From Zobellia galactanivorans (GTDB lineage: Bacteria; Bacteroidota; Bacteroidia; Flavobacteriales; Flavobacteriaceae): DNA of 64,000 bases. The notes beneath the pieces are model-generated. The model searched no databases and was not told the origin of the DNA. It saw only the letters and a program-made list of their open reading frames with translations. This document shows, piece by piece, positions 6,059-21,502 of this stretch. The position numbers and the translations under genes are program-made. Numbering within the stretch: the first letter of the stretch is position 1; each line of letters starts with the position of its first letter. The stretch spans positions 1,112,501 to 1,176,500 of the forward strand of contig NC_015844.1 of the NCBI RefSeq assembly GCF_000973105.1, in the 5' to 3' direction.

Positions 6059-6086
6059 GTTAACCTTTTTAGGTGTTTCCCATAAA
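6059..6086 (+). promoter_or_regulatory. GTTAACC-N15-CATAAA element (ECF-type promoter candidate)
   Basis: GTTAACC at 6059-6065, 15 bp, CATAAA at 6081-6086. The same bipartite element precedes eight further units between 14.0 and 21.5 kb. Box content and 15-bp spacing resemble ECF sigma promoters. Confidence 0.65.
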
Positions 6087-6155
6087 TGAAAGAGAAACAC
6101 AAAGGCAAATGATTCATGCCTTAACGGATAATACTATTATCAAATACCGATTGAC

Positions 6156-7499
6156 ATGAAAAAACGAACACATCTGGCAAAACTGGCAATGGTTTTTCTG
6201 GGGCTTTTTTTTGTAAGCCATACAAGTAGCGCGCAAATTCTAAGAAAACTTGGGAAGGCCGCTGAGCGGGCCGCGGAAAGAACCGTTGAAAGACGTGTAG
6301 AAAAAGAAACCTCTGAAAAAACCGATCAAGCCCTTGATAGTATTTTTGAACCAGGGGAAAGCAAAAAGAAGACGAAGAAAAAGTCCGGTTCAAAAAAAGA
6401 CAACACCTCAACCAATAAGGCGCCTACCGAAACCAGCGGTACTAGCGGAAACTCCGCTTCCACCGTTCCGAAAAACGCTTCGCCGACCATGGCCATATAT
6501 AGCAAGTTCGATTTTGTTCCCGGAGACACTCCCCTCTTTTTCGATGATTTTTCAAATGAATTTGTGGGCGATTTTCCCTCGCGATGGAATACGAACGGAA
6601 GTGGAGAACTGGTTACCGTAGAAGGTGAAAACAGCAAATGGCTAAAACTTCTGCCAGGTTTCACCACTGCGTACATTCCCGATATAAGCCCGTTACCCGA
6701 CGAATTCACCCTAGAATTTGACGTCATTGCACTAGGACTCGACAAAAAAACCTCGTCACAGGCGTACTTCGGCATTGTTATAGAAGACAACAATACCTTT
6801 AAAAAAGGAGCGAACATGGGCATGGTGGAATATTCCCTTTGCCAATTTATAGACCCAGGGATAACCGTAGAAAACAAGGTCGCTTCAAAAAGGGTCATTC
6901 GAAACATCGTAAAAGCCGATATACGCCAGGTTGTGAACAACAAACACCACATATCGGTAGCCATCAACAAAGAGCGTTTTCGATTTTGGATAAACGAGAA
7001 CAAATATATTGACGTACCTCGGCTACTCCCATCCAATGTACAGATGCAGGGAATAAAATTTATGCTTCGCGGAACGGATACCAATAAAGAATCTATACTA
7101 ATAAGTAATATAAAGGTAGCCAAAGGAGGTGTTGACTTACGAAGGAAACTATTGGCCGATGGAAAAATATCGACCAACGGCATTCTGTTCAACAGCGGCT
7201 CGGCCGAGATACAACCCCAGTCGATGGGCATTATACGGCAGATATATCAGGTACTGCAACAAGACTCTTCCATCAACCTCAAGATCGTAGGCCATACGGA
7301 CGCCGATGGAGATGACAAGAAAAACCTTCAACTCTCAAAGCAAAGGGCCGAAGCCGTAAAAAATGCACTCGTATCTATATATGATGTATCTTCCAGTAGA
7401 CTATCTACCGACGGCAAAGGAGAATCTGAACCTGTTGGAGACAACTCAAGCCCCGACGGCAAATCTATGAACCGACGTGTAGAATTCATTAAACTATAA
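6156..7499 (+). CDS. Secreted OmpA-family protein with central jelly-roll-like domain
   Basis: A 447-residue exported protein. A signal peptide (about 1-26, SHTSSAQ) is followed by a highly charged helix and Lys/Ser/Thr-rich linker (30-105). The central region, about 110-330, begins FFDDFSNEF and resembles a laminin-G/jelly-roll fold. The C terminus, about 345-447, is an OmpA domain with ILFNSGSAEIQPQS, VGHTDADGDDKKNLQLSKQR and NRRVEF, which normally binds peptidoglycan. It lacks an outer-membrane barrel, so it may link the wall to another surface component. It starts the row 6156-9609, with gaps of 12 and 34 bp and no terminator until 9629, so the three genes are probably co-transcribed. It has both a vegetative-type promoter and the GTTAACC element. 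Confidence 0.82.
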   Translation: MKKRTHLAKLAMVFLGLFFVSHTSSAQILRKLGKAAERAAERTVERRVEKETSEKTDQALDSIFEPGESKKKTKKKSGSKKDNTSTNKAPTETSGTSGNSASTVPKNASPTMAIYSKFDFVPGDTPLFFDDFSNEFVGDFPSRWNTNGSGELVTVEGENSKWLKLLPGFTTAYIPDISPLPDEFTLEFDVIALGLDKKTSSQAYFGIVIEDNNTFKKGANMGMVEYSLCQFIDPGITVENKVASKRVIRNIVKADIRQVVNNKHHISVAINKERFRFWINENKYIDVPRLLPSNVQMQGIKFMLRGTDTNKESILISNIKVAKGGVDLRRKLLADGKISTNGILFNSGSAEIQPQSMGIIRQIYQVLQQDSSINLKIVGHTDADGDDKKNLQLSKQRAEAVKNALVSIYDVSSSRLSTDGKGESEPVGDNSSPDGKSMNRRVEFIKL

Positions 7500-7511
7500 A
7501 TAACACACCTT

Positions 7512-8210
7512 ATGAAGACCGCTTTATTAACAACCGTATTCTGCCTTATCGTGACCACCGTCACTTTTGCCCAAGACAGCTGTAGTAAATTTTACCCTCT
7601 GGAAGAAGGGAGTTCGTTTGAATATACAAATTATGACAAAAAAGAAAAGGTAGAGGGCTCAGTGCACTACACCATTACCGAGGTCCGCTCCGAAGGCGCT
7701 GCTTCCGTAGCCACTTTTGATATGAAGTACAAGGATAAAAAAGGAAAGGACCTATTTGAATCAAATTACTCCTTCAGCTGTGAGAACGGCCTGGTCACCA
7801 TTGACTACAAATCACTTTTCCCCTCGCAAATGATGCAGCAATACACGGAAATGGGGTTGGAGATGGACATCTCGGGAACCGATATCGAACTCCCCAACGA
7901 CCTGAGTGTAGGCCAACAATTGGCCGATGCCAATGTTACGGTGGCCATGAGTATGAGCGGCATAAACATGAACGTTTCGGTCGACCAGACGAATAGAAAA
8001 GTAGAAAAAAGGGAAAACGTGACTACGCCTGCCGGTACTTTTGACTGTTATTTGATTACGGAAAACCACATGACCAAGACCATGGGCGCGACCATTGAAA
8101 CCTCAACAAAGCTGTGGCTGGCGGAAGGCATAGGCATGGTAAGACAAGAAGCGTACAAAAAGAATGGCACCTTAATGAGCCGAACCGAGCTTACCCGATT
8201 TACTAAATAA
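7512..8210 (+). CDS. Secreted TapB/DUF3108-like protein
   Basis: A 232-residue protein with a signal peptide (cleavage near VTFAQ, residue 20). The mature part, beginning CSKFYPLEEGSSFEY, and the later TPAGTFDCYLITE and KLWLAEGIGMVRQEAY segments are typical of the TapB/DUF3108-like beta-rich family seen in Bacteroidota. The biochemical role is unknown. It follows the OmpA-like gene by 12 bp and precedes the S8 protease by 34 bp, so it is likely in the same operon and presumably periplasmic or surface exposed. Confidence 0.72.
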   Translation: MKTALLTTVFCLIVTTVTFAQDSCSKFYPLEEGSSFEYTNYDKKEKVEGSVHYTITEVRSEGAASVATFDMKYKDKKGKDLFESNYSFSCENGLVTIDYKSLFPSQMMQQYTEMGLEMDISGTDIELPNDLSVGQQLADANVTVAMSMSGINMNVSVDQTNRKVEKRENVTTPAGTFDCYLITENHMTKTMGATIETSTKLWLAEGIGMVRQEAYKKNGTLMSRTELTRFTK

Positions 8211-8244
8211 TACAAGCAAAAAACGCTTACTAAATTTATAACCG

Positions 8245-9609
8245 ATGAAAACCAAAATACTCCTTCTTCTGTCACTCCTGTTTATTGTAAGCTCTTGTGA
8301 CGAAGATGCCACCGAAGGCCTTGTAATCGATCCTGACGATATAATTGACAACGAAAACATCATAGTGGTAGACGAAGGGGCGGATAGCGGAAACCCCAAG
8401 ATTTTTATTTCGCCCAATGAAGTAATCGTCAAATACGACCCAGGGGTTTCACAAGACTCGGTAAGGAAAGACTTCCCCTTGCTCAATTATAAAAAATGCG
8501 ACTGCGGGGATACCAATATTGAATTGTGGGTTTTTGACCCCGGCATCGATGAACTTGAAATTGAAGGTGTTGTCCAGAGGCTTTCAAGACGCAGCGGGAC
8601 ACGGGGCGAACGCTCCTTCGACATTCAACTTACACCCGTCGGACCATTTCCCCAGCCCGGACAGGATGTATTAGCCGATACAGTAGGCCTAGTCGGCCCT
8701 GCTTCCAGTCTTTCAGTTAACATTGCGGTCATCGATACCGGACTCGATTTTAAAAGATACCTGAACACCGAAAGCCCGGAGAAATTTTTGTTTCCCAGCG
8801 GCTACTATAGCTACTGCTACGATACGGGTACCGGTTGGAATTTTACAGGTGAAGGAGACCCCAACTTTGTAGATGATAACGGGCATGGCACCTACGTAAC
8901 CAAAATCATGACCGACGAACTCGACAAGAAAGGCGTCGACTATCAAATTCTACCTTTAAAGGTTTTCGACGCAAGTGGAAGGGGATCGTATTGGGACGTG
9001 CTTTGCTCCTTGGCCTATGTAAAGGACATCAACCATTTTCGTAAGGTAATCGATATCGTAAATGCCAGTTTTGGCGGCGGGCTGCCACGTGAATTTTTTG
9101 ACGAGCCGGAAGCCGGGGAAACCGAAAACATCTTTACCGAGATGCTGGAAGCCCTTAATGATCAAGGCACATTGGTCATTACCTCGGCCGGAAACAAAGG
9201 TGAAGACAACGATACCGGCGTCGAAGGGGATTTCCTGTCCTCTTTTCGGTCTCCCAACATAATCTCGGTTGGCGGTTACGAGTACGATACGATCAATCCT
9301 GCTGCACGGCCCATCACACTTCACCGCCTCTCAAATTATGGAAGCGACGGAAGCGTCGATATCGCATTGGCCTTCAACAACTATGAGATCATCTACGATA
9401 CCAGCGATTCACTCCGAAAACAAAGGGTAACCCTACATGGCACTTCGTATGCCGCGGGCGCCTTGTCGGGAAAGGCCGGCACCCTAATCGACAGCCTAGG
9501 CAATCTTTCTATCGAAGATCTGAAAACCCATATCTTCAACTTAACGGAACACGCGCCCCAGCTCGACGGCAAAATAGTCGATGGAAGGGCCCTTATCCGG
9601 GAAGAATAA
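8245..9609 (+). CDS. S8 family (subtilisin-like) lipoprotein protease
   Basis: A 454-residue protein with a lipobox (LFIVSSC, Cys about 18), so membrane anchored after export. An N-terminal region (about 50-110, with NEVIVKYDPG) looks like a prodomain. The catalytic triad is visible: Asp164 in VIDTGLD, His214 in NGHGTYV and Ser401 in HGTSYAAG, with oxyanion Asn317 in TSAGNKGE. All active residues are present, so it should be an active serine protease of the cell envelope. A strong terminator follows directly. Its position next to a CHAT protease and an ECF/anti-sigma pair suggests a role in signalling or processing, which is inference. Confidence 0.9.
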   Translation: MKTKILLLLSLLFIVSSCDEDATEGLVIDPDDIIDNENIIVVDEGADSGNPKIFISPNEVIVKYDPGVSQDSVRKDFPLLNYKKCDCGDTNIELWVFDPGIDELEIEGVVQRLSRRSGTRGERSFDIQLTPVGPFPQPGQDVLADTVGLVGPASSLSVNIAVIDTGLDFKRYLNTESPEKFLFPSGYYSYCYDTGTGWNFTGEGDPNFVDDNGHGTYVTKIMTDELDKKGVDYQILPLKVFDASGRGSYWDVLCSLAYVKDINHFRKVIDIVNASFGGGLPREFFDEPEAGETENIFTEMLEALNDQGTLVITSAGNKGEDNDTGVEGDFLSSFRSPNIISVGGYEYDTINPAARPITLHRLSNYGSDGSVDIALAFNNYEIIYDTSDSLRKQRVTLHGTSYAAGALSGKAGTLIDSLGNLSIEDLKTHIFNLTEHAPQLDGKIVDGRALIREE

Positions 9610-9628
9610 GGTAAACCACCCTAGAGGG

Positions 9629-9789: not shown

Positions 9790-12552
9790 ATGGTGCACCT
9801 GCGATTCAACTGTATCCTTTTTTTTCTTTTGGGCCATTTGTGCATGGCACAACAAGAAATCTTGACCGAGATTATCCATACGGATGCGCAGAAGGAAGTG
9901 ATCGAACAAAAAATCGACGCTTTCTTCGCCTCCCACACAAAAGATATGTCCCCAAGGGAATTGGCCGATTGCTACCACGATGTGGGCAATAAATGGTATC
10001 ACGAACAGTGGTGGGACACAGGGGAGGAAAGCGATATCGAAAAGGCCATTTATTACACCCAAAAGGCTTTGGAAATCAAGTCAGGGTTAAAAGACCTAGA
10101 AAAGGGATCCTTGGACAACACCCGTTTCAACCTCGGTGTATTTTACAGTCTTAAAGGGGAAATTTATAAGGCCCGAAATACTTTCTTGCATATTTCGAAC
10201 AAGGGAAGTGACGTGGAATGGATACAAAAGGCCCGACTTGAACTAGGCTACAATTATTTGACCACAGGCGATTTTTACAAGGCCCTAAATCAATTTTCAG
10301 AGGTCACCTTATTGCATGCCGGGGTGCCAACCTCCCCAAGCACATCGCCATACATCATCGATATCGACGCCCAAATCTTAGTGGCGGAGACCTACGCCGA
10401 AATGGACCTGAAGGAATTTTCAAACGAGATACGTTTGAACCTTAAAAAAGCAGACTCCCTCATCGGTCGTTACAAGGAAGCCGACAAACAATACCGAAGG
10501 CGTATCGACCATTTGGAGGGCAACCGACTTATCGAAAACGGCAGCTACGAACAGGCCATCGCCAAACACAAGCAAGTACTAAAAGACTCCGTGGACCTGG
10601 GGCCCAGGGATATAGCGAACATACACAGCAGCATCGGCTACTCCCATTTGAAATTAAAAAACTACGACCAGGCCCTCATCCATTTAAAAAAGGCAAATTC
10701 CTTGGTTGAAGATTTTTCCCTTCCTTACGAAAACCTAGGCGATTTTTACCTTGACCAAAATAATTACGAAAAAGCCCTGTACCATTACCAAAAAGCCATT
10801 GTACTGTCAACCGACGGCAGAAAGGGAATACGTTTCGATGAGCTTCCGTCCGTTGAGGACCTTGAACTTGCAAGCGAAAAAATTGTTTTGCTTGGCCATG
10901 TAATCGCCAAGGCCAACGGCTGGTTAAAGTTTTACGAATACGACAAAAACAAAGACCACCTCGACCATGCTTTAAAAACCTTTGCACTGGCGGATCAACT
11001 GGTCGATATCATACGATCGGAAAGTACGGAATACCAATCAAAGCTCTTTTGGCGCGAAAAAGGGGCTTCGTTGTACGCGAAGGCCGTACAGGCATGTTAC
11101 TTGCTCGACAAGCCCAAAGAAGCCTATTATTATATGGAACGCAACAAGGCCTTATTGCTTTTGGAGGATGTGTCCGTGGAACAGGCAAAGGAATTGGCAC
11201 AATTGCCCCAAAAAACAATAGAACGCGAGTTCAGGCTCAAACAAAATATTTATTTATCCGAAAACGAATTGAGGAATCTTGAACCTACTTCCGAAAGCTC
11301 CCTCGATTCGGTCAGGCAACGGGTCTATGAAAGCAAGCGGATCTATAACGCTTTCTCAGATTCACTGGCTGCGGCCTTTCCCGACTATGCCAACATCAAA
11401 AAACAAGTCCGTTTGCTCTCCCATACCGATTTTATATCCGATTACATTTCGGACGATGAAGCCGTACTCCAATATATCCTTAACGAAGAACAAGGATACG
11501 GTCTGCTGACATCAAGCGAACAAAGTACTTTCTTTAAACTTGACGACGTAAAAAAATTAAATGATCAACTGATAGTGCTCTACGGCCAATTGACCGACCT
11601 GACCACCAGCCGAGACGAGCTGACGCGTTTCAATACCTTATCTCACCAAATTTTTAACCAATTGGTACCCGAAACCGTACACGAGACAATTAAAGGAAAA
11701 AAACTGACCCTCATTACCGATTACATCCTACAACAGATTCCTTTTGAAGCCTTTGTGACCGACCTCGAGAATCTCACTTACCTAATAGAGAACACCGAGA
11801 TCCGGTACGCCTACTCGATGTCGTACCTAAATGCAAAAAAACAGGTCTCCAGTAAGGCCAAAAACGATTTTTTGGCCATAGCCCCTATAACATTTAACAC
11901 TCTGGAACTTCCAGAACTTGTGTTTAGTAAATCTGAAGTGGAAGAAGCGGAAAGAATCTTTCCCGGAAAAAGGCTGATGAACCAAGAAGCTACAAAAGCA
12001 AGGTTCTTAGAACAGGTAAACGACTATAACATTATACATCTTTCTACCCATGCCGATATTGGCGAGGAGAACGACCCTTGGATCGCCTTCAGTGACGAAA
12101 AAATGTTTCTGAACGAGGTGTATGCTACCAAAAATCAAGCTGACATCGTTGTGTTAAGTGCCTGTAATACTTCGATAGGCGAACTTAAAAAAGGCGAAGG
12201 GGCCATGAGTTTGGCCCGAGGCTTCTTTCATTCCGGGGCGAAAAGCGTGGTATCTTCCCTATGGTCTACCAATGACAAGAGCAGTAAGGAACTTATGGTA
12301 GCTTTTTACCAAGGTCTTGATGAGGGACTCACCAAATCGGCCGCCCTACGGAAGGCCAAAATCGATTATATCAACAAGTATCGGGGCAGCAGTATTTCTC
12401 CGGCCTATTGGAGCGCTTTGATCATTATCGGGGACAACATACCGATCAGGCCTGCCCATAACCAATGGTCTTATATCTTATATATAGTTCTAGGGACTCT
12501 ATTGGCCTTAGTGCTTTATCTTCTTGTCAAAAGAAGGGAACACCTTTCCTGA
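9790..12552 (+). CDS. Secreted TPR-CHAT domain protein with C-terminal membrane anchor
   Basis: About 920 residues. The signal peptide (MVHLRFNCILFFLLGHLCMA) is followed by tetratricopeptide-like helices (about 40-420) and a C-terminal CHAT (caspase-like) peptidase domain (about 560-890). Its catalytic pair is visible: His754 in HLSTHAD and Cys792 in LSACNT, with the GAMSLARGF and VVSSLWS segments of the family. A hydrophobic helix (YILYIVLGTLLALVLYLLV) and KRRE end the protein. The frame stays open upstream to an ATG inside the preceding terminator, which cannot be the start; ATG 9790 fits best and ATG 9766 is possible. It meets the TPR anti-sigma gene tail to tail with 2 bp between. Periplasmic proteolysis of a signalling partner is inferred. 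Confidence 0.85.
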   Translation: MVHLRFNCILFFLLGHLCMAQQEILTEIIHTDAQKEVIEQKIDAFFASHTKDMSPRELADCYHDVGNKWYHEQWWDTGEESDIEKAIYYTQKALEIKSGLKDLEKGSLDNTRFNLGVFYSLKGEIYKARNTFLHISNKGSDVEWIQKARLELGYNYLTTGDFYKALNQFSEVTLLHAGVPTSPSTSPYIIDIDAQILVAETYAEMDLKEFSNEIRLNLKKADSLIGRYKEADKQYRRRIDHLEGNRLIENGSYEQAIAKHKQVLKDSVDLGPRDIANIHSSIGYSHLKLKNYDQALIHLKKANSLVEDFSLPYENLGDFYLDQNNYEKALYHYQKAIVLSTDGRKGIRFDELPSVEDLELASEKIVLLGHVIAKANGWLKFYEYDKNKDHLDHALKTFALADQLVDIIRSESTEYQSKLFWREKGASLYAKAVQACYLLDKPKEAYYYMERNKALLLLEDVSVEQAKELAQLPQKTIEREFRLKQNIYLSENELRNLEPTSESSLDSVRQRVYESKRIYNAFSDSLAAAFPDYANIKKQVRLLSHTDFISDYISDDEAVLQYILNEEQGYGLLTSSEQSTFFKLDDVKKLNDQLIVLYGQLTDLTTSRDELTRFNTLSHQIFNQLVPETVHETIKGKKLTLITDYILQQIPFEAFVTDLENLTYLIENTEIRYAYSMSYLNAKKQVSSKAKNDFLAIAPITFNTLELPELVFSKSEVEEAERIFPGKRLMNQEATKARFLEQVNDYNIIHLSTHADIGEENDPWIAFSDEKMFLNEVYATKNQADIVVLSACNTSIGELKKGEGAMSLARGFFHSGAKSVVSSLWSTNDKSSKELMVAFYQGLDEGLTKSAALRKAKIDYINKYRGSSISPAYWSALIIIGDNIPIRPAHNQWSYILYIVLGTLLALVLYLLVKRREHLS

Positions 12553-12554: not shown

Positions 12555-13292
12555 TTATTCCAAGTCCCTAAAAAGTTTAGAGGCTTCCTCTTTTTTATAT
12601 CGGCCATCGGCTACCAAATCGTTCAACATACGGATGGCATTTTCCTTTTCATTTATCTTCAAATAGGCCAGTGCCGCATACCAAAGGGCCTGTGGCCTAA
12701 ACTCTCCCTTTTCGTTTATTGTTTCATCAAAAAGGGCAATAGCCTTCTCGGCCTGCCCATTTTTAAGATAGGATTGTGCCAAGTAGAAATTGACCGCTTC
12801 GGTGTTCTTTGTTTCTTTCAACTGGGTAAAAAGGGCTATCGCCTGAACATTATCGTTGGTCTCATAGGCTACAAAGGCTTGTCGCTCCAACGAAGTATCG
12901 GCTTCCTCTCCACGGGTAATGGCATATACCGTATTCGGATACTCTTGAAAGTGCTCCTCATACATATCCATATAACCCGATCCTGAAAAATTGTTGTAGC
13001 CCAACCAGCCCAAGCCGACCAATAAAGCTATCGAGGCCGCCATGGCCCATTTTCGATAAACGGTAAACGGTGCTCTTGCCGTTTCTTCTTTTTGAATACC
13101 TTCTTCAAAGCCTATAAGTTTGGCCTTAAGTTGTTTGGCCTCCTTTTCACGAATAACCCTCTTGAGGTTATTTTCAAAATCGAATTGCTGCTTGAATTCA
13201 CCATCGGTCTCCAAAAGTTGGGCGAATAGTCTTTCTTGCTCGGGCGTTAGCCGGTTTGAAAAGTAATCGTAGAGTAATTGCTCCTTATCCAT
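12555..13292 (-). CDS. Membrane-bound TPR protein, probable anti-sigma factor
   Basis: About 245 residues. The cytoplasmic N terminus (DKEQLLYDYFSNRLTPEQERLFAQLL) resembles the short sigma-binding helices of Bacteroidota anti-sigma factors. One transmembrane helix (about 82-100, WAMAASIALLVGLGWLGY) is followed by a periplasmic region with tetratricopeptide-like repeats (about 150-240, with VNFYLAQSYLKNGQAEKAIALF). It lies 2 bp after the ECF sigma stop codon. A longer frame overlapping the sigma gene exists, but ATG 13292 fits the operon. The architecture suggests it holds the sigma factor at the membrane until a periplasmic signal is sensed; this is inference from context. Confidence 0.75.
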   Translation of the reverse strand: MDKEQLLYDYFSNRLTPEQERLFAQLLETDGEFKQQFDFENNLKRVIREKEAKQLKAKLIGFEEGIQKEETARAPFTVYRKWAMAASIALLVGLGWLGYNNFSGSGYMDMYEEHFQEYPNTVYAITRGEEADTSLERQAFVAYETNDNVQAIALFTQLKETKNTEAVNFYLAQSYLKNGQAEKAIALFDETINEKGEFRPQALWYAALAYLKINEKENAIRMLNDLVADGRYKKEEASKLFRDLE

Positions 13293-13294: not shown

Positions 13295-13864
13295 CTAGTA
13301 GGTATTTTCTTGGATGCGTTCCTTTAATGTTTTCATACACCTCGATTTGGCCGCCTTGACCACATTTTCACTATTGTAATTCCCCGCTTTCATTATTTCT
13401 TGAATGGTGTAACCACGATAATAAAAGAAGGTCAGTAATTCTTGGCATTTAGCCCCGAGGTCTTTAAAATGCTTCTGGAGTAGTTTCTGTTCCCTTGTCA
13501 GGTCGGACCGCTCCAGGTCAAGCGTACTTATCTGTTCATCAGTGTCGCCTACCCGAGTGAGGTCGTAGCTTCCTGAGACTGTTTTTTTGTTCTTCCTCAT
13601 CCTATCAAAAATTAAATACTTGCCAATAGAGAATAGATAGGTAGAAACACTGCTGGTCAAGCTTTCTAATTTCCCGTTCATTATGTTTTCATAAAAAACG
13701 ATATAGGCATCTTGGTAGATATCGATGTTCTCTTCTTCCGTAAGCTTATAGCGCCTCGCAAAATTCAAAAACTTAGACCGGTTATCTTCATAGACCTTCC
13801 GGAGTGTTTCTTCAGAACCTGCTTGAAGCTCTTCCAGTGTAATATTTTTATCTGTCTCTTGCAC
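13295..13864 (-). CDS. ECF-type RNA polymerase sigma factor
   Basis: 189 residues with sigma region 2 (about 25-95: NFARRYKLTEEENIDIYQDAYIVFYE, STYLFSIGKYLIFDRMRKNKK) and region 4 (about 135-185: LLTFFYYRGYTIQEIMKAGN, NVVKAAKSRCMKTLKERI), separated by a charged linker and lacking region 3, as in ECF sigmas. The start is GTG at 13864; no ATG is available before region 2. It is followed by its probable membrane anti-sigma. Nearby units on the other strand share a GTTAACC-N15-CATAAA element, which this sigma could recognise. That link is inferred from location and motif type. Confidence 0.9.
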   Translation of the reverse strand: MQETDKNITLEELQAGSEETLRKVYEDNRSKFLNFARRYKLTEEENIDIYQDAYIVFYENIMNGKLESLTSSVSTYLFSIGKYLIFDRMRKNKKTVSGSYDLTRVGDTDEQISTLDLERSDLTREQKLLQKHFKDLGAKCQELLTFFYYRGYTIQEIMKAGNYNSENVVKAAKSRCMKTLKERIQENTY

Positions 13865-13865: not shown

Positions 13866-13893
13866 TTAATAAACAGGAATTGAAAAGGTTAAC
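13866..13893 (-). promoter_or_regulatory. GTTAACC-like element directly before the sigma gene (uncertain)
   Basis: On the minus strand GTTAACC (13893-13887), 15 bp, TATTAA (13871-13866). The spacing matches the other copies, but the second box is only 1 bp before the GTG start. Transcription would begin inside the gene unless the start is misplaced. It may be autoregulation, a regulator site or chance. Confidence 0.35.
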
Positions 13894-14023
13894 ATCAACG
13901 GCCGCTAATTTAACGTTTTTTGTATGCGCTTTTTGATTATTGCCGGCATATCCCTCAATAATTGGCCGTTTGTAGTATTTAAACTACAAACGTTTACTAA
14001 AAAACTTCCGGATTATGCTTGGT

Positions 14024-14050
14024 ATTAACCTTTGCCCCCTAAAACATAGA
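14024..14050 (+). promoter_or_regulatory. TTAACC-N14-CATAGA element
   Basis: ATTAACC at 14024-14030, 14 bp, CATAGA at 14045-14050, 26 bp before the ATG of the small peptide gene. The spacing is one base shorter than in the other copies. Confidence 0.5.
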
Positions 14051-14075: not shown

Positions 14076-14144
14076 ATGGAAACTTATAGGAAATTGGAGA
14101 TAGCAAAAAGAATTTTGATCGTCGCTTTGATAGTAACCCTCTGA
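14076..14144 (+). CDS. Small membrane peptide, short copy
   Basis: A 22-residue open frame, METYRKLEIAKRILIVALIV then TL, with a charged N terminus and a hydrophobic end. It matches the 30-residue peptide at 18938 (METYRKLE..KRILIVAL against MDTYEKFE..KRILILAF), and both follow a TTAACC element. The stop TGA is followed in frame by five more codons before another stop, so this copy may be truncated. No known family recognised. Confidence 0.5.
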   Translation: METYRKLEIAKRILIVALIVTL

Positions 14145-14278: not shown

Positions 14279-14306
14279 CTTAACCTTCACCTTCCGCTAC
14301 CATTAA
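14279..14306 (+). promoter_or_regulatory. CTTAACC-N15-CATTAA element
   Basis: CTTAACC at 14279-14285, 15 bp, CATTAA at 14301-14306, 37 bp before the lipoprotein ATG at 14343. The first base differs from the consensus. Confidence 0.55.
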
Positions 14307-14342: not shown

Positions 14343-14933
14343 ATGAAAACACCAACAACATTTTTTATTGTCTTACTGTTAGGTATATTCCTGTTGAATA
14401 CTTCCTGCTCCAAAGAGGACGGACCCAACGCACCCGAGCCCGTGGCCAAGGAAGAAACAATTAAAGAAGAAATAGAAGAAGAACCGGCCAACAACCCTCC
14501 GGACAGTTTTAATTTGATCGGGGTAATCGATGGCGTCACAGACGTGGATGTCTACCCTACCTTTAGCTGGGAAGAAGCTACCGATCCAGATGGCGATACC
14601 ATTACCTACAACTTATATTTAGGCAGAGAAGAAGACCCAACCCAACTGTAGGCGGCAGACCTTACCGACACTTCTTATGAGCTTACATAAGGTTTGCATA
14701 CCTATGAACCTATTACTGGAAAGTAGTGGCCAAAGATCCCAACAACGCAGAGGTAGGTAGTAGCATAAACCAGTTTAGCACTAGAGGCCTTAATTTTAAC
14801 CATACCCCAGTTACGGCTGCTGCCCCTTTCTCGGGAAGATTAATTCATACCACGGCTGTTTTGAACAAATAAATTATGGGTCATTGGGGGGCTAGATGGA
14901 AACAGAAAAAATGACGTCTGGGCTTTTAATTAA
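14343..14933 (+). pseudogene. Decayed Fn3-Kelch lipoprotein
   Basis: The first 102 codons read well: lipobox (LLNTSC, Cys 21), a Glu-rich linker and the start of a fibronectin-III-like domain (PPDSFNLIGVIDGVTDVDVYP). A TAG follows GREEDPTQL. After it the remains continue across two more stops and frame changes as YYWKVVAKDPNNAEVGSS, then SGRLIHTTAVLN, then, after another shift, NKLWVIGGLDGNRKNDVWAF, a Kelch blade. A terminator follows. It is therefore the remnant of a longer Fn3-plus-Kelch surface lipoprotein, related in its Kelch part to the intact gene at 17700. The short N-terminal product may still be made. Confidence 0.75.
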
Positions 14934-14942
14934 ATCCGCAAC

Positions 14943-14974
14943 AAAAAACCTCAGTTAAACCCTGAGTTTTTTTT
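14943..14974 (+). terminator. Rho-independent terminator
   Basis: CTCAG (14950-14954) pairs with CTGAG (14962-14966), extended by flanking A and T runs, followed by eight T. It ends the decayed Kelch unit. Confidence 0.75.
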
Positions 14975-14984
14975 ATGCCCCAAT

Positions 14985-15012
14985 GTTAACCTTTTTGCGT
15001 CACGTTCATAAA
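14985..15012 (+). promoter_or_regulatory. GTTAACC-N15-CATAAA element
   Basis: GTTAACC at 14985-14991, 15 bp, CATAAA at 15007-15012, 38 bp before the ATG of the collagen-like gene. Confidence 0.65.
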
Positions 15013-15049
15013 ATGAAAAACAATCGATATTCCTTAAAACTTTATAATT

Positions 15050-15841
15050 ATGAACTTTTCAAAGAAAAATCACGAACACTTTAATTGCAATAGCGAACAC
15101 GTGAGTAAAACTTCAGTAAAATTTTTAATTTGCTTCATTATGGCACTTACCATTGCAGCCTTGACCTCGTGCCAAAAAGACAACCTTGAAGACGCGGTAC
15201 TCACAGAAACCGTTCATGGAGAGCAGGGCGTCGCAGGCACGGCGGGCGAAAACGGACGAGACGGCGAAAAGGGCGATACCGGGGAACAAGGGCCACAAGG
15301 AGAAAAAGGAGAGAGAGGTCCTCAAGGCGAACAGGGGCCACAAGGAGAAATCGGAGCCGCAGGAGCAAATGGAGCCGATGGGGAAGATGGAAATGCCAAT
15401 GTTCGATCGTTTAAATTTAGCCTTACAAGTGTAGCCTCATCGCACCATACCATCGAAATGCCGCAATTGACCACCGAGGTAATGGAAAATGACGTTATTC
15501 TGACCTATTTACAATTTTCAAGACCGCTTTTGTTGACATATCAACTACCTGCCACGATAAATGTCGGTCTTGGCGGAGGGCGAAGCCTTGCCGCGGACAT
15601 TTCGGCATCACTTTGGGTAGGTGAAATTACATTATCGCTAAAAAAACCAGGGGAGCTGACCAGTCTTATGGATTCCGATATTCGTGCCGGGGACTTAAAA
15701 ACCCTACGGGTCGTCATCATCAAATCGACAGAAAGCACAACTGGAAAAACTGCTGAACAAAACGTTCGGGCAGAACTAAAGTCGGCGGGAGTTAACATTA
15801 GCAATTATGATGAAGTGGCGCGATATTATGGTATTGATTAA
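15050..15841 (+). CDS. Collagen-like lipoprotein (Gly-X-Y repeats), longest paralogue
   Basis: 263 residues. After a long n-region and hydrophobic stretch comes a lipobox (IAALTSC, Cys about 41). Then about 19 uninterrupted Gly-X-Y triplets (from GEQGVAGTAG to GADGED) should form a collagen-type triple helix. The junction DGNANV follows, then a beta-rich domain (about 117-245) of unknown fold. The end, GVNISNYDEVARYYGID, matches the C-terminal signature of the paralogues. It is the most divergent family member in the beta domain. It shares a transcript with the decayed copy at 15881 and has its own upstream element. A trimeric surface fibre is inferred. Confidence 0.85.
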   Translation: MNFSKKNHEHFNCNSEHVSKTSVKFLICFIMALTIAALTSCQKDNLEDAVLTETVHGEQGVAGTAGENGRDGEKGDTGEQGPQGEKGERGPQGEQGPQGEIGAAGANGADGEDGNANVRSFKFSLTSVASSHHTIEMPQLTTEVMENDVILTYLQFSRPLLLTYQLPATINVGLGGGRSLAADISASLWVGEITLSLKKPGELTSLMDSDIRAGDLKTLRVVIIKSTESTTGKTAEQNVRAELKSAGVNISNYDEVARYYGID

Positions 15842-15880
15842 TCTAATCAACTTTAAAAATTAGAAATTATAAAAGCACGA

Positions 15881-16445
15881 ATGAAATTTTTTACGATAAC
15901 GGTCATGGCCTTGACCCTTGGTTTGGCCTCATGCTCAAAATAAGGCGATATCGGCCCTATTGGCCCAGAAGGATTACAAGGTATCCAAGGTGAGCAAGGG
16001 CTTCAAGGAGAACCTGGGCAAGATGGCGAGGAAGGTAATGCGAATGTAATTATATCTAACTGTATTGAAGCAATAAGAGATTATTTTGGCCCCATTGCAG
16101 AAATGAATACCCCTCTATCGGAAATTGCCCCGTCAATCATAGAAAGTAGTGTCGTATTGGTTTATATGAAACTAAATGGTTTTCACGAACGTATTTGGCC
16201 ATAAGGCCACGCCTCTTTACCCCCCATAACTATCGAAACGGAAAGTTCTGAATAAGCATTTACCTATTTTTTAGTAACGAAAACTTAAATATACAATATC
16301 GTATAAGCCCTATTGTTGAGTTTAATTCGTTTCCTTCGGATACTGAATTTGGACATGGAATTAGACCTTCTAACATGGCCAAAAAAACAACAGCGTATAT
16401 TTTTCTATGTTGGAATATTATGAGTTGATAGATTATATAGGTTGA
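15881..16445 (+). pseudogene. Decayed collagen-like lipoprotein
   Basis: It starts well (MKFFTITVMALTLGLASCSK) but a TAA replaces the Asp codon right after the lipobox; the intact copies read SCSKDGD here. Ten Gly-X-Y triplets and the EEGNANV junction follow in frame, then further stops (after ERIWP and ESSE). The C-terminal signature survives in another frame as LEYYELIDYIG before TGA at 16443. There is no own promoter element; it follows the intact paralogue by 40 bp and ends at a terminator, so the two formed a two-gene unit. Confidence 0.85.
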
Positions 16446-16464
16446 TATACTAAAGGTCAAATAA

Positions 16465-16506: not shown

Positions 16507-16534
16507 GTTAACCTTGGCATACGTGTTTCATAAA
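16507..16534 (+). promoter_or_regulatory. GTTAACC-N15-CATAAA element
   Basis: GTTAACC at 16507-16513, 15 bp, CATAAA at 16529-16534, 28 bp before the ATG at 16562. Confidence 0.65.
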
Positions 16535-16561
16535 ATGACAAACAAATAAATAACAAACATT

Positions 16562-17617
16562 ATGAAAATTACTAAAGTTTATACAGCAGTTTTAGCCTTA
16601 ACATCATTATTGTTTATCAATTGCAGCAAAGGTGACGATGATAATGGCGGGAATCCACCGGTTCAAGAAACCCCAACGATTGAAGGTACTTGGAAGGTCG
16701 TAACCAATAACTACTTTGACGATTCAAAATATTTCATAATCAATGAAGATAATACCTTACACATTCTTTACGAAGACAACCTTGGTTTCAAGGGTGCCCA
16801 AAATGCCAACTATACCAATAACGAAGAAGAACTTCAACTGACCATAAATTTTGGATACGCCTCTTTATTGGCCAATTATACCGTCAGTAGTGATGACCTT
16901 GTTCTCAATTTCCCCGATGGTAGCATTTCCTTAACAAAGGAAACAACTGCCCTAGACCCCGACAACTGGATCAAAAAGCTAAAAATCATTAACGAAGGCG
17001 ATGCCCCTTGGACCGAAAGCATCGATATCGCATGGAACGGCAGCCAACTCGTTATAGGAAACGGATACGAGGCCGAAGCTATCGGACTCGTAAACCCTGA
17101 AACATTTGCCCTAGAAGGTACCATTGCTACCACTAGAAGCGCATTTGCCGTCGAAATCGAGAACTATGATGACGAGGAAAAATACATTTTTCAAAGTGAC
17201 AACGGGAACAACAAATTTCATATGTACGATTTAGCGGATAACACACATGAGGATGAGTCCCTCCCATTAGGAAGTTGGATACACGGCTTGGCATCTATAG
17301 ATCACCAGACCATATGGGCTTCCAGTAACAATGAAGATTCTATTTACCTCTATGACTATGATTCGAAAACCATTTTACAAACCATCGACCTTGAAGAAAA
17401 AAGTCCAAACGGCCTAGATTATCAAGCCGGCTATCTTTATATCTGTGCCAGTGGTCAACTCTATAAGTGTGATGTTTCCGATGGCTTTGAGGTTATAGAG
17501 TCGTATACCCTACCCGACTATTCAATAACGGGCATAGCTTATGATGGCAGTTACTTTTGGGTATATGCGGAAAAGAACAGTGAAGGCAAACTCGTTCAGT
17601 TAGACCTAAGCATCTAA
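16562..17617 (+). CDS. Lipoprotein with lipocalin-like and beta-propeller domains
   Basis: 351 residues with a lipobox (LLFINC, Cys 21) and an acidic linker. A lipocalin-like beta-barrel domain (about 40-125) begins IEGTWKVVTNNYFDD. A propeller-like region (about 140-351) has repeated blades such as TESIDIAWNGSQLVIGNG, WIHGLASIDHQTIWASS and ITGIAYDGSYFWVYAE. No enzyme motif was seen; binding or surface sensing is likely. The Kelch lipoprotein follows after 82 bp without a terminator, so both are probably read from the GTTAACC element before this gene. Confidence 0.75.
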   Translation: MKITKVYTAVLALTSLLFINCSKGDDDNGGNPPVQETPTIEGTWKVVTNNYFDDSKYFIINEDNTLHILYEDNLGFKGAQNANYTNNEEELQLTINFGYASLLANYTVSSDDLVLNFPDGSISLTKETTALDPDNWIKKLKIINEGDAPWTESIDIAWNGSQLVIGNGYEAEAIGLVNPETFALEGTIATTRSAFAVEIENYDDEEKYIFQSDNGNNKFHMYDLADNTHEDESLPLGSWIHGLASIDHQTIWASSNNEDSIYLYDYDSKTILQTIDLEEKSPNGLDYQAGYLYICASGQLYKCDVSDGFEVIESYTLPDYSITGIAYDGSYFWVYAEKNSEGKLVQLDLSI

Positions 17618-17699: not shown

Positions 17700-18722
17700 A
17701 TGAAAATTTTAAAATATATAACGGTATGTACCCTCTTTCTAAGCTTCCTTTCTTCTTGTGATAAAGACTTGGTCGGCGAGGCCAAGGACCTTGAAGAAGG
17801 ACCGACCAAAGGACTTCCCGAAGACGACAGTCTGAGGCTTGAAATCACGACCGTGACCCATGAAGACCAAATGGGCAGTTTTTACGACAATGGAATAGTA
17901 GAATTTCAAGGTAAAATATGGTCCGTGGCCGGATATAACAGCTATAGCTTACCAAATTGCAACAGTGATATCTGGAGCAGCGATAATGGTATCAATTGGC
18001 GTAGTGTAACTTCAAACCACTTTGGAGCGAGAAGGGGACATGCGACCGCGGTTTTTAAGGACAAGATTTGGGTCATAAGTGGCATAAATACAGATGCTTC
18101 TCCTTGGGTGGAATACGGCGATATATGGTCTTCAACCGATGGGGAAGCATGGACACAAGAATTGGAACACGCCCCATTCGGGCATATGTTCTACCCTAGT
18201 TTAACCGTCTTTCACGACAAGATGTTCATTATAGGCACATCGTCTTCTGATGAAATGGTGGTCTGGTCGACCGCCGATGGCATTTCATGGAACTTAGAGG
18301 CCTCTTCCCCTTTTCCGAAAAGGGAATCGCATCAGACCGTAGTCTTTAATGATAAAATGTATGTTATAGGGGGGCAAACCGCAGGTCACGCCTATAATGA
18401 TATATGGAGCAGCGATGACGGTGCTACCTGGACCAACCTCACCCTGTCCGGCGATGTGTTTTCCAGAAGGTTCGGCCACGGAGTCACGGTATACGACAAT
18501 AAGGTCTGGGTACTTGGCGGAACAGGTATTCTTACAGGGCCTTATGCCGACCTCTATTATTCGGAAGATATGGAAGAATGGACCCAATATACCGATTTAG
18601 GCCCATCACCTACTCCGCTGAGCAATTTCGCCACGCTTACCTACAATGGGGCCATTTGGATCTTTGGCGGTTACGACAACCGCGAACCCATTGGTGAAAT
18701 CGTTACGCTCAAAGCCATTTAA
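17700..18722 (+). CDS. Kelch-repeat lipoprotein
   Basis: 340 residues with a lipobox (SFLSSC, Cys 20) and a six-blade Kelch/galactose-oxidase-like propeller. Blades repeat the pattern RRGHATAVFKDKIWVISG, SHQTVVFNDKMYVIGG, RFGHGVTVYDNKVWVLGG and NFATLTYNGAIWIFGG, each followed by DIWSS(D/T)DG-like turns. There is no catalytic signature. Such propellers usually bind proteins or glycans at the cell surface. It lacks the Fn3 part present in the decayed copy at 14343. It is the second gene of a probable two-gene unit closed by the terminator at 18849. Confidence 0.82.
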   Translation: MKILKYITVCTLFLSFLSSCDKDLVGEAKDLEEGPTKGLPEDDSLRLEITTVTHEDQMGSFYDNGIVEFQGKIWSVAGYNSYSLPNCNSDIWSSDNGINWRSVTSNHFGARRGHATAVFKDKIWVISGINTDASPWVEYGDIWSSTDGEAWTQELEHAPFGHMFYPSLTVFHDKMFIIGTSSSDEMVVWSTADGISWNLEASSPFPKRESHQTVVFNDKMYVIGGQTAGHAYNDIWSSDDGATWTNLTLSGDVFSRRFGHGVTVYDNKVWVLGGTGILTGPYADLYYSEDMEEWTQYTDLGPSPTPLSNFATLTYNGAIWIFGGYDNREPIGEIVTLKAI

Positions 18723-18848
18723 TTAGTCTCTATAAAGACACTTCCATATCGATAAGCCTCTTTATTAATTCTTGGAAGAGGCAATCAATTTCAAAGTGGT
18801 TTTCTAAACGAAGGACCGAAATCCGAAAGAAATACTTTCATATAAACA

Positions 18849-18878
18849 AAAAACCGAGTTAGACTCGGTTTTTTTTAT
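18849..18878 (+). terminator. Rho-independent terminator
   Basis: AACCGAGT (18852-18859) pairs with ACTCGGTT (18863-18870), flanked by A and T runs, followed by T. It ends the 16562-18722 unit. Confidence 0.9.
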
Positions 18879-18884
18879 TCCGAT

Positions 18885-18912
18885 GTTAACCTATGTGCTT
18901 TCCTTACATAGA
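18885..18912 (+). promoter_or_regulatory. GTTAACC-N15-CATAGA element
   Basis: GTTAACC at 18885-18891, 15 bp, CATAGA at 18907-18912, 26 bp before the small peptide ATG at 18938. Confidence 0.6.
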
Positions 18913-18937
18913 ATAGAGAACCCTATAATGAAAGAAC

Positions 18938-19030
18938 ATGGACACTTATGAAAAATTTGAATTCCTTAAAAGGATACTCATCCTTGCCTTTATGGTAACG
19001 ATATCGATCCTGATCACACTTGTGGCCTAA
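18938..19030 (+). CDS. Small membrane peptide (30 residues)
   Basis: The frame begins MDTYEKFEFLKRILILAFMV and continues to a hydrophobic end (TISILITLVA). It has a charged N terminus of about ten residues, then one transmembrane helix. It matches the 22-residue frame at 14076 over its first 21 residues, and each follows a TTAACC element by the same 26 bp. Conservation between two sites argues for real translation. No known family recognised. It lies 60 bp before the lipoprotein at 19091 and may be co-transcribed with it. Confidence 0.55.
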   Translation: MDTYEKFEFLKRILILAFMVTISILITLVA

Positions 19031-19090
19031 ATTCCGACTCGACCCTATACTTCGCAACACTTGCCCATTAACAACTTAAAAGCTTCAATT

Positions 19091-19645
19091 ATGTACACGA
19101 CAAAACACCTCTATTCAACTTTAAGAAAATTTGCCACTATAGCTTTCTTACCTTTTCTTATGGGAAGCTGCGAAACCGAAATACCTTTGGAAGACAGCGA
19201 CCCGCCAAACTTTAGTATTCAAATTACGGGAGACGGATTTAGCGAAACCTTTGACCAAGACACCGATTTCGACAGCTTTCAATTGAATCTTAAAAGAGAG
19301 ACCACCTATGATTTTATATTGACCGGAGCCGACCAAGGCGGGTTAAAACGTTTGGAAATGTATTTTACCCCTGATTACATTGATATGAACGCCAACCTAT
19401 ACGGACCTTGGCAAGTGACCACCCTAACATTCCTGACAGATTTGATTTCTTGGAACGGCAATCGCTCTTCTCCCCTTACCGGAACAGTGTTAGACGGTTC
19501 GTTCACCACCAAGGGCGACAATGTTTCCTTGGAAATCTCCCTCTACCTATTAGACTATGGCGGTGACTCTGGAAGTTCGAACAGTTCCAGTGCTGCACTA
19601 AATATCTTTATTGACGACCACGAAACGGAAATCGTGTTTTTCTAA
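19091..19645 (+). CDS. Hypothetical lipoprotein
   Basis: 184 residues with a lipobox (FLPFLMGSC, Cys about 25) and a mature beta-rich part (NFSIQITGDGFSETF, LEMYFTPDYIDMNANLYGPW). Near the C terminus is a Ser/Gly-rich linker (DSGSSNSSSAA). I do not recognise the family. A TTG ten codons upstream is in frame, but ATG 19091 puts the signal peptide correctly at the N terminus. It follows the small membrane peptide gene without a terminator, so it probably depends on the element at 18885. Confidence 0.7.
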   Translation: MYTTKHLYSTLRKFATIAFLPFLMGSCETEIPLEDSDPPNFSIQITGDGFSETFDQDTDFDSFQLNLKRETTYDFILTGADQGGLKRLEMYFTPDYIDMNANLYGPWQVTTLTFLTDLISWNGNRSSPLTGTVLDGSFTTKGDNVSLEISLYLLDYGGDSGSSNSSSAALNIFIDDHETEIVFF

Positions 19646-19692
19646 ATAGATTCGGCGCACCCTATCCCCTGTATTTCATTTTATTATATGAT

Positions 19693-19720
19693 GTTAACCT
19701 TAACTTACGTTATGCATAAA
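19693..19720 (+). promoter_or_regulatory. GTTAACC-N15-CATAAA element
   Basis: GTTAACC at 19693-19699, 15 bp, CATAAA at 19715-19720, 28 bp before the ATG at 19748. Confidence 0.65.
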
Positions 19721-19747
19721 ACACCAAACGCATAAATAACAAGCATT

Positions 19748-20359
19748 ATGAAAACCACATTTAAAATTTTATTCTTGAGTTTTTTCAGTATCGCAGCACT
19801 AACGACTTCCTGTTCAAAGGATGGGGATACTGGCCCAATAGGCCCCCAAGGAGAGCAAGGACCGGCAGGCGAACAAGGTGTGCAGGGCCCAGAAGGACCA
19901 GCAGGGGAAGATGGCAACGCCAATGTAATCGCTTCCGAATGGTTTCCCTTAACTTTTGAAAAAACCATGGTAAACGAACTGCCGCATTTTAATGGCAACA
20001 AAGCAGTTCCGGAAATTACTTCTGAAATCGTTGAAGAAGGAACAGTAATCGTTTACGGCAAACTAAACGGTTATACCGAAAACGTTTGGCCGACCGACAA
20101 AGTAGCCCAATTTCCGATTACGCTCATGTACAATGCCTTGGGAAATACCCAAATCGACATTTATAAAGCGTTTATTTCTGAAGGAAACATACAATTCAAC
20201 GTTACCGAAAACTATGATATCCATGGTGGTGTAAGCCCATATCATATGTATAGGTATATTATCATCCCAACAAACTCGGTTACGGAAAAATCCCAAAATC
20301 CCAACTTTAGCAAAATGACCTACCGTGAAGTTATGGACCATTTTGGACTTGATTATTGA
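19748..20359 (+). CDS. Collagen-like lipoprotein, paralogue
   Basis: 203 residues with a lipobox (ALTTSC, Cys 22), then ten Gly-X-Y triplets ([12 protein letters not shown] to GPAGED) and the family junction DGNANV. A beta-rich domain (about 58-185) follows, and the C-terminal signature [15 protein letters not shown]. Its last 49 bp, the terminator and the next element are nearly identical to those of the following paralogue. It is a single-gene unit with its own element and terminator. Proline-rich X positions favour a triple helix; a trimeric surface or periplasmic lipoprotein is inferred. Confidence 0.85.
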
Positions 20360-20425
20360 TGAAATCATTTACAAAATGAAAAACCGAGGCCTACACCTCG
20401 GTTTTTTTATGCGCCGATGTTAACC
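20311..20425 (+). repeat. 115-bp direct repeat, copy 1
   Basis: It covers the last codons of the collagen-like gene, its terminator and the GTTAACC box of the next unit. It is identical to 21074-21188 except at one base (g 20361, a 21124). The offset is 763 bp, one cassette length. Confidence 0.9.
20379..20409 (+). terminator. Rho-independent terminator
   Basis: AAACCGAGG (20381-20389) pairs with CCTCGGTTT (20396-20404), followed by T. Identical to the terminator at 21142. Confidence 0.92.
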
Positions 20426-20447
20426 TTGCTATAGCCTATTCCATAAA
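20419..20447 (+). promoter_or_regulatory. GTTAACC-N16-CATAAA element
   Basis: GTTAACC at 20419-20425, 16 bp, CATAAA at 20442-20447, 28 bp before the ATG at 20475. Confidence 0.62.
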
Positions 20448-20474
20448 AAGCCAAACGTATAAATAACAAGTATT

Positions 20475-21122
20475 ATGAAAACTACATTGAAATTGCTATT
20501 CATGACTTTTTTGAGCATTACTGCACTGATTACTTCCTGTTCAAAAGATGGGGATGTCGGTCCAATAGGGCCACAAGGGGAGGAAGGCCCAATTGGCCCC
20601 CAAGGAGAGCAAGGTGAACAAGGACTCCAAGGTGAACAGGGCCCACAAGGACCAGCCGGTGAAAACGGGGAAGATGGGGAGGACGGCAACGCCGAAGTAT
20701 ATTACAGCGATTGGATTCCTGCCAATTTTACGGGCACCTCGGAAACTATACAATATATGGGAATCGATTTTCCTGCTTCTATGGAATCCGCCTTTAGAAT
20801 TAAAAACACCCATATTGTTTTGGTCTATTTCACCGGTTACGGCGACGGCAACGTTTACCAACTACCTGTTCTCAATTTTAGAGGGGCCCAATTTACCTTT
20901 GGCTATGGTTCTGGCAGTGCCGCTTCAGAGGATATCAACATATATGCAAGATCAACAAGCACCAGTCCGCTGAGCGAGTACGCCATAAGCCCTGAACGAG
21001 GGAATAGGTTCCGTTACCTTATCATTCCCCCGAACATACTCATCTCTTCAAAAGGGAATACACCGGATTTTAACAAAATGACCTACCGTGAAGTTATGGA
21101 CCATTTTGGACTTGATTATTGA
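20475..21122 (+). CDS. Collagen-like lipoprotein, paralogue
   Basis: 215 residues with a lipobox (ALITSC, Cys 22). Fifteen Gly-X-Y triplets run from [12 protein letters not shown] to GENGEDGED, five more than the previous paralogue. The junction is DGNAEV, and a beta-rich domain follows. The C-terminal [15 protein letters not shown] is identical to that of its neighbour. The signal-peptide and 3' regions are very similar to the gene at 19748 while the beta domains differ strongly, which suggests duplication followed by diversification of the exposed head. Single-gene unit. Confidence 0.85.
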
Positions 21123-21188
21123 TAAAATCATTTACAAAATGAAAAACCGAGGCCTACACCTCGGTTTTTTTATGCGCCGATGTTAACC
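21074..21188 (+). repeat. 115-bp direct repeat, copy 2
   Basis: Second copy of the repeat at 20311-20425, with one mismatch. It ends with GTTAACC at 21182-21188, which here leads only to a gene remnant and has no recognisable second box. Confidence 0.9.
21142..21171 (+). terminator. Rho-independent terminator
   Basis: AAACCGAGG pairs with CCTCGGTTT around ACACC-type loop bases and is followed by T. It ends the 20475 unit. Confidence 0.92.
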
Positions 21189-21235
21189 ATGACCTATGAA
21201 AAAGCCTTCCCATAGTTATTTCCAAAGAGGTTATA

Positions 21236-21412
21236 ATGGATATTGATGAAATCAATGTTGGGTCCCTCGTTGTAGAAGTAATATCCGATTCTGGCCAAAC
21301 GCTAGACTTTAGATTTATTCTTGTTAAAGGCAATCTAGCCGGAAAAACAGAAAGGGAAAACATTAAAAAAATGACTTACGAAGAAATTATGCAGTATTTT
21401 GGCTTGGAATAG
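21236..21412 (+). pseudogene. C-terminal remnant of a collagen-like lipoprotein
   Basis: A 58-codon frame without signal peptide or Gly-X-Y repeats. It ends KKMTYEEIMQYFGLE, the family's C-terminal signature, preceded by a strand-rich segment (DFRFILVKGNLAGKTE) like the end of the beta domain in the intact copies. GTTAACC is kept at 21182 but the CATAAA box is missing. A terminator follows, so this is a deleted cassette. Confidence 0.75.
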
Positions 21413-21433
21413 TAATGTGCTTTCTAAGCAAAG

Positions 21434-21464
21434 AAAAAAACCTCGGTTACACCGAGGTTTTTTT
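21434..21464 (+). terminator. Rho-independent terminator
   Basis: AACCTCGGT pairs with ACCGAGGTT around the short loop TAC, followed by T. It belongs to the deleted cassette. Confidence 0.9.
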
Positions 21465-21474
21465 CTTTGCAATT

Positions 21475-21502
21475 GTTAACCTTCATTAACCACCACCATT
21501 AA
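21475..21502 (+). promoter_or_regulatory. GTTAACC-N15-CATTAA element
   Basis: GTTAACC at 21475-21481, 15 bp, CATTAA at 21497-21502, 28 bp before the ATG at 21530. Confidence 0.62.

Follow-up and report, generated by a model that had tools for sequence, protein, structure and literature searches.

The RpoE-RseA-DegS and SigW-RsiW systems pair an extracytoplasmic function (ECF) sigma factor with a membrane anti-sigma factor from which it is released by proteolysis. Both pairs are named in a study that also describes Csx29-Csx30-CASP-sigma, a type III-E CRISPR system in which a TPR-CHAT protein cleaves a sigma inhibitor (PMC10028731). In Flavobacterium psychrophilum, the -10 region of the ECF motif SM6 features a CGT box, and the genes attributed to the motif include components of the type IX secretion system (PMC9723704). 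According to a further report, no more than 6% of ECF factors in Bacteroidetes have a class I anti-sigma domain encoded next to them (PMC7406223), and the control of most of these factors is therefore an open question. Here we analysed a 64,000-nucleotide (nt) stretch of the Zobellia galactanivorans genome (the window; contig positions 1,112,501–1,176,500, position 1 being its first letter), in which a two-box element recurs ahead of an array of gene units. The refined core of this element is (A)TGTTAACCTT-N13-CATWAA, and it very probably represents the -35/-10 promoter of an ECF sigma factor encoded within the array at 13295–13864 on the minus strand.

The two-box element and its linkage to a sigma factor gene

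The original prediction had placed a GTTAACC-N15-CATAAA element at nine positions and suggested that it acts as an ECF-like promoter of a local regulon. We found the element at all nine coordinates (6059, 14024, 14279, 14985, 16507, 18885, 19693, 20419 and 21475). Exact GTTAACC-N13-17-CATAAA occurs five times in the window versus zero in 100 shuffles, and the degenerate copies are those at 14024 (ATTAACC-N14-CATAGA), 14279 (CTTAACC...CATTAA), 18885 (...CATAGA) and 21475 (...CATTAA). A two-box matrix was trained on 68 sites from 19 loci of relatives (L045–L063), including one congener (L047) and with zero sites from the Z. galactanivorans genome. These sites were picked by a core pattern followed by an ATG 15–42 nt downstream, a choice that by construction fixes TTAACC and some of box 2 in the matrix. 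Their spacers are of 15 nt in 61 cases and 16 nt in 7, with the selecting pattern permitting only 14–16. Eight of the nine sites score 18.6–27.8 in the matrix scan of the window, the maximum over 40 simulated 64-kb sequences being 17.7. Site 14024 scores 7.9, in a 16-nt spacer alignment because the matrix contains only spacers of 15 and 16, and is a decayed copy. The nine best matches correspond to these eight sites plus a new one on the minus strand at 13893–13866 (score 25.5). Box 2 lies 25–37 nt from the start codon in eight of the nine units and 69 nt from it in the 6059 unit. The element thus combines an AAC in the -35 box with two boxes at fixed spacing, as expected of an ECF regulon promoter.

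The earlier inventory had overlooked both this minus-strand site and the sigma factor gene that it precedes (13295–13864, −), the predicted reader of the element. The gene has a GTG start and encodes 189 residues, a length consistent with ECF factors that lack regions 1 and 3. Its product matches Pfam Sigma70_r2 (PF04542; 26.1 bits, cut-off 24) and, over residues 20–183, the TIGR02937 sigma70-ECF model (50.6 bits, cut-off 42.9). Pfam identifies region 2 only and the ECF model spans the remainder, with region 4 giving no separate match. Based on these family matches, we assign the protein to the ECF (group IV) sigma factors; our search for a sequence relative of it with a solved structure found none. 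The gene forms a trio with those of a TPR protein and a TPR-CHAT protein, described below.

Motif and sigma factor co-occur across genomes. In 50 genomes, the relaxed pattern GTTAACC-N14-16-YATWRA did not rise above the control of its reversed form, and therefore the tighter GTTAACCTT-N12-14-CATWAA was used for genome counts. This strict motif is present in ten copies in the 5.52-Mb Z. galactanivorans genome (5,521,712 bases), versus one for the reversed-pattern control. Six copies lie inside the array and four outside, so the regulon would be mainly but not only local, and the original notion of a local regulon holds only for the most part. Among 299 genomes of the family, a sigma homologue (E ≤ 1e-20) was found in 55 and the strict motif in 52. 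At this threshold, which is the cut of the search itself, the motif is present in 30 of 55 genomes with the sigma factor versus 22 of 244 without it (Fisher p 6e-13). With a cut picked after viewing the homologue list, E ≤ 1e-56, it is present in 21 of 21 close-sigma genomes versus 31 of the 278 others (Fisher p 2e-18). The mean number of strict sites per genome is 5.0 in the former (n = 21) versus 0.13 in the latter (n = 278), and two or more sites are found in 18 of 21 versus 4 of 278. In named genomes, the nearest sigma relatives belong to Zobellia, Maribacter, Pseudozobellia and other Flavobacteriaceae.

The same sigma-TPR-CHAT trio is present at four paralogous loci, L094 (Z. galactanivorans genome), L096, L097 and L100, with sigma factors 41–46% identical. 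At L094, L096 and L097, GTTGACC elements precede the divergent gene, which at L094 encodes a lipoprotein preceded by the shifted element GTTGACCTT-N13-TATAAA, and the elements of the sigma genes themselves read GTTTACT or GTTTACC. Judged from these sequences, element and sigma factor tend to change together, as a promoter and the factor that reads it would be expected to do. This second locus of the Z. galactanivorans genome occupies L094:1402–5823, at about 2.215–2.220 Mb.

Of the four strict sites outside the array, three stand ahead of genes, in L007, in L008 and in the paralogous locus L094, and the fourth is intergenic, in L095. The exact element lies 33 nt upstream of L007:1562–2302, which encodes a protein of unknown kind, and 26 nt upstream of L008:1555–2064, encoding a 169-residue lipoprotein; a congener (G001) holds an identical and a near-identical counterpart of these two sites. 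The intergenic copy (L095:9933–9961, −) has no obvious downstream gene and may precede a small RNA or a short open reading frame (ORF). A further genome match, at 1957509, sits within coding sequence and was discarded as chance.

Target genes and rival explanations for the element

For the window and 20 relatives, a looser element pattern gave 111 matches, some of them surely chance, of which 18 precede sigma genes, 22 lipoproteins, 20 collagen-repeat lipoproteins, 13 short ORFs (eight of a 30-residue membrane type, one truncated) and 28 other proteins, with 10 lacking an ORF. In 80 named sigma loci (80 kept of 132, in partial overlap with the 20 relatives), the 244 elements away from sigma genes precede 157 lipoproteins (55 with collagen repeats), 43 proteins with a hydrophobic N-terminus, 13 small MDTYEKLE-type ORFs and 8 other short ORFs; 7 precede an ORF of none of these kinds and 16 no ORF. 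By these predictions, the targets are mostly lipoproteins, many of them collagen-like, along with other exported proteins, an OmpA protein, a subtilase and the 30-residue membrane peptide. The aligned collagen-like lipoproteins (20 sequences) mostly share a C-terminal motif with the consensus x-Y-x-x-V-M-x-x-x-G-L-x-Y, and a PDB fold search with a model of the collagen-lipoprotein domain gave no convincing match (best E 0.12).

In the window, all target units lie on the plus strand. The element at 6059–6086 precedes a run of genes encoding an OmpA-family protein (6156–7499; Pfam OmpA), whose relatives likewise follow the element, a DUF3108-like protein 12 nt downstream (7512–8210), a subtilase (S8) lipoprotein (8245–9609), which has its own element upstream in L047, L050 and L052, and the CHAT protein. 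The decayed element at 14024–14050 precedes a 22-codon ORF (14076–14144), and its counterpart in L045 has the N15 form. The CTTAACC form at 14279–14306 is followed by a lipoprotein ORF (14343–14651) that ends at 102 codons, shorter than its L047 relative, and looks decayed. The element at 14985–15012 precedes a collagen-like lipoprotein (15050–15841); past about 15880, a second collagen-like copy is stop-interrupted, has no element of its own and also looks decayed (both decayed copies lie within 14343–16450). The copy at 16507–16534 serves as the upstream element of two lipoproteins (16562–17617 and 17700–18722, the latter of kelch type), and that at 18885–18912 stands before a small membrane ORF and a lipoprotein (19091–19645). 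This ORF (18938–19030; MDTYEKFEFLKR...) encodes a 30-residue, likely single-span membrane peptide that recurs under the element and near the sigma gene, and it is possibly a small regulator of the anti-sigma factor or the protease. Collagen-like lipoproteins follow the elements at 19693–19720 (gene 19748–20359), 20419–20447 (N16; gene 20475–21122) and 21475–21502 (gene 21530–22150). The tenth, broken copy that had been proposed is indeed box 1 alone (21182–21188), ahead of a remnant (to about 21414) resembling the C-termini of collagen-like lipoproteins, and this remnant shows an instance of gene loss.

Six junctions out of the ten sites were folded (14985, 16507, 18885, 20419, 21182 and 21475), and each of them has a hairpin with a T-run immediately ahead of box 1. 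With a terminator-like hairpin in this position, the units look like promoter-gene-terminator cassettes. One such terminator-promoter junction (20306–20428, +) is repeated at 21069–21191 with 98% identity over 123 nt, a pattern that fits recombinational gain and loss of genes.

We favour a promoter read by the array's sigma factor because the sigma gene lies within the array, the genes behind the element vary among relatives, motif and sigma factor co-occur across genomes, and the elements are shifted beside paralogous sigma factors; these four points also support the ECF-like character originally proposed. The palindrome GTTAAC would suit the operator of a DNA-binding regulator. However, the near-constant distance of the second box within the range permitted in training, the linkage to an ECF sigma factor across genomes and the shifts at the paralogous loci all speak for a sigma factor, which is also the only DNA-binding regulator among ten window proteins scanned, and we consider an operator very unlikely. 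It is less credible still that the copies are merely DNA hitch-hiking on the tandem duplication of lipoprotein genes. The two near-identical junctions and the paralogy of some lipoproteins would fit such an origin, but the element stands ahead of dissimilar genes (OmpA, subtilase, kelch, small ORF and sigma) and at unlinked loci, and is retained in other genera despite differing genes. Three observations weigh against assigning the element to this one sigma factor and an exported regulon. L094, L096 and L097 each hold one GTTAACC site 2–4 kb from their own sigma gene, so the specificities of these sigma factors may overlap. Four genomes outside the close-sigma set carry two or more sites, and in three of these (G135, G206 and G213) a sigma homologue of lower similarity is present. 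Finally, 213 of the 244 elements in the named loci stand before a lipoprotein, a protein with a hydrophobic N-terminus or a small membrane ORF, as judged by a lax signal test; of 343 long background ORFs, 250 pass it too, though many of those are regulon genes.

Proposed release of the sigma factor and possible feedback at its start codon

In 44 of 44 loci, the gene of the TPR protein is next to the sigma gene and a CHAT gene lies within 3 kb. These loci were picked by sigma homology, L094, L096, L097 and L100 also for a nearby motif match, with search models derived from L044–L063 and the window. In the named loci, the trio is present in 79 of 80, the exception being a 3.2-kb contig, and the CHAT gene is on the opposite strand in 76. 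The TPR protein (12555–13292, −) is composed of N-terminal helices, one likely membrane segment and a C-terminal TPR domain, according to Pfam and to a structural model with a mean predicted local distance difference test (pLDDT) score of 75.6. At a mild threshold, all 80 of 80 relatives show the hydrophobic segment, which follows after about 80 residues. Since membrane anti-sigma factors are expected to be co-encoded with their sigma factor and to have a membrane segment after a helical N-terminal domain, both found here, we predict that the TPR protein is the anti-sigma factor. The TPR-CHAT protein (9790–12552, +; open frame from 9649) is encoded convergently with it and matches Pfam CHAT (PF12770) with 177 bits (E 7.3e-52). 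By motif counts in the named loci, the catalytic Cys is present in 79 of 79 and the His in 78 of 79, the single protein without the latter being a 188-residue open-frame fragment; this composition points to a caspase-like protease. A C-terminal membrane helix is present in 75 of 79, and the N-terminus looks signal-like by eye. PDB relatives of the protein by sequence were TPR chains only. If the predicted topology is right, the CHAT protein and the TPR tail of the predicted anti-sigma factor would lie in a shared compartment.

Based on this, we propose that an envelope signal would lead the TPR-CHAT protein to cleave the predicted anti-sigma factor and thereby free the sigma factor, a step that we judge about equally likely to be right or wrong. 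The freed sigma factor would then drive the cassettes that encode the 30-residue membrane peptide, the surface lipoproteins, of which many are collagen-like, and further exported proteins. It would also drive the OmpA-subtilase-CHAT side and so amplify the signal; amplification is suggested by L047, L050 and L052, where the element stands ahead of an S8 gene followed by the CHAT gene.

The sigma gene's own element (13866–13893, −; GTTAACC-N15-TATTAA) is placed differently from those of the target genes. Its box 2 ends 1 nt before the GTG, and in 74 of the 80 named loci, searched with the relaxed pattern GTT[AGT]AC[CT]-N14-16-[CT]A[TC]..., the end of box 2 falls within -1 to +1 nt of the start codon; the distance at target genes is mostly 22–37 nt (window and 20 relatives). 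A similar pattern detected a start-codon-abutting element in 32 of 53 wider sigma homologues from the family and class (54 taken, one dropped for short upstream sequence), versus 0.01 expected in simulated upstream sequences. More distant class-level homologues (L106, L118 and L122, and L103 by eye) have related start-codon elements of the GTTTAC ... TAA-ATG types. Upstream of the element, an alignment of 18 orthologues revealed a sigmaA-like -7 box, TAAATTAG (13905–13912, −). A TAnnTT[AT]G box 14–24 nt from box 1, a range set after inspecting this alignment, is present at 48 of 74 sigma genes versus 3 of 221 target elements. The sigma gene would thus be served by the upstream sigmaA-like promoter. 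An ECF-driven transcript starting 5–8 nt past box 2 would be without the sigma start codon and would retain the anti-sigma gene, and holoenzyme bound at the element would cover the sigmaA start. Taken together, these features would favour negative feedback, to which we give an even chance. More tentatively, and with the balance tilted against it, the exported TPR-CHAT protease and the start-codon promoter may form a widespread Bacteroidota module, a pulse generator for an expandable set of collagen-like lipoproteins, in which active sigma factor makes an anti-sigma-only mRNA and occludes its own sigmaA promoter.

ECF factors are usually positively autoregulated, and the sigma gene's element might accordingly be an ordinary autoregulatory promoter, with the sigma factor translated from a leaderless mRNA or from an internal start. 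This alternative to feedback is rather unlikely. In all 74 matching loci box 2 abuts the start codon, so that hardly any space is left for transcription to begin at or ahead of it. An internal start at a conserved I-T-L-E-D-L was set aside, the first codon of this candidate being variable (ATT, ATA, GTA, CTA and ATC among others), and leaderless mRNAs amount to 5.5% in F. psychrophilum (PMC9723704). The release step likewise has a competitor, somewhat more plausible than positive autoregulation, in which the CHAT protein has its action elsewhere or serves as a scaffold, and release of the sigma factor falls to a different protease such as the S8 lipoprotein. The S8 gene adjoins the CHAT gene and follows the element in some relatives, but only 6 of 20 relatives gave an S8 match, versus a CHAT gene in 20 of 20. 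Against release by CHAT itself counts that only synteny and predicted topology tie cleavage to the candidate anti-sigma factor, and that no element directly precedes the CHAT gene in the window. The candidate also gave no anti-sigma family match in Pfam or NCBIfam; its PDB structure matches were TPR domains only, covering part of the model, and the N-terminal part of that model is of only moderate confidence. Under stricter scans, the membrane segment of the TPR protein passes the hydropathy cut in only 5 of 21 and the CHAT N-terminal segment is flagged in only 6 of 21.

Comparison with known systems

Our analysis provides, for one ECF group, a concrete promoter, a predicted anti-sigma factor and a candidate protease, together with a surface-lipoprotein regulon that can be tested within one organism. 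The placement at the start codon constitutes a simple, conserved prediction about feedback. None of the literature matches listed describes a sigma-TPR-CHAT module, which may nevertheless correspond to a described group in the ECF reclassification.

As in the RpoE-RseA-DegS and SigW-RsiW systems, an ECF sigma factor is encoded here next to a likely single-span inhibitor candidate, with a protease gene nearby and an AAC in the -35 box. The Zobellia locus differs in having a caspase-like CHAT protein as candidate protease and a TPR domain as the tail of the inhibitor candidate, and in the position of the sigma gene's element directly at the start codon. The element resembles SM6 in being an ECF-type promoter of the Flavobacteriaceae, and it is distinct from SM6 because SM6 carries the CGT box; the Zobellia element has CATWAA and mostly lipoprotein targets. 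The inhibitor candidate shares co-encoding with the sigma factor with the class I anti-sigma factors (PMC7406223), and it gave no anti-sigma family match in Pfam or NCBIfam.

A PADLOC scan of four locus proteins found no match to Cas7-11 or Csx30/Csx31, the rest of the genome not having been searched. The closest functional analogue is Csx29-Csx30-CASP-sigma (PMC10028731), where a TPR-CHAT protein, a sigma inhibitor (here a candidate) and an ECF-type sigma factor are likewise encoded together. In contrast to that system, the Zobellia CHAT protein looks exported and membrane-anchored, and the inhibitor candidate is a membrane TPR protein. If the CHAT protein is the releasing protease, control of sigma factors by TPR-CHAT proteins would extend from type III-E CRISPR systems to loci outside CRISPR.

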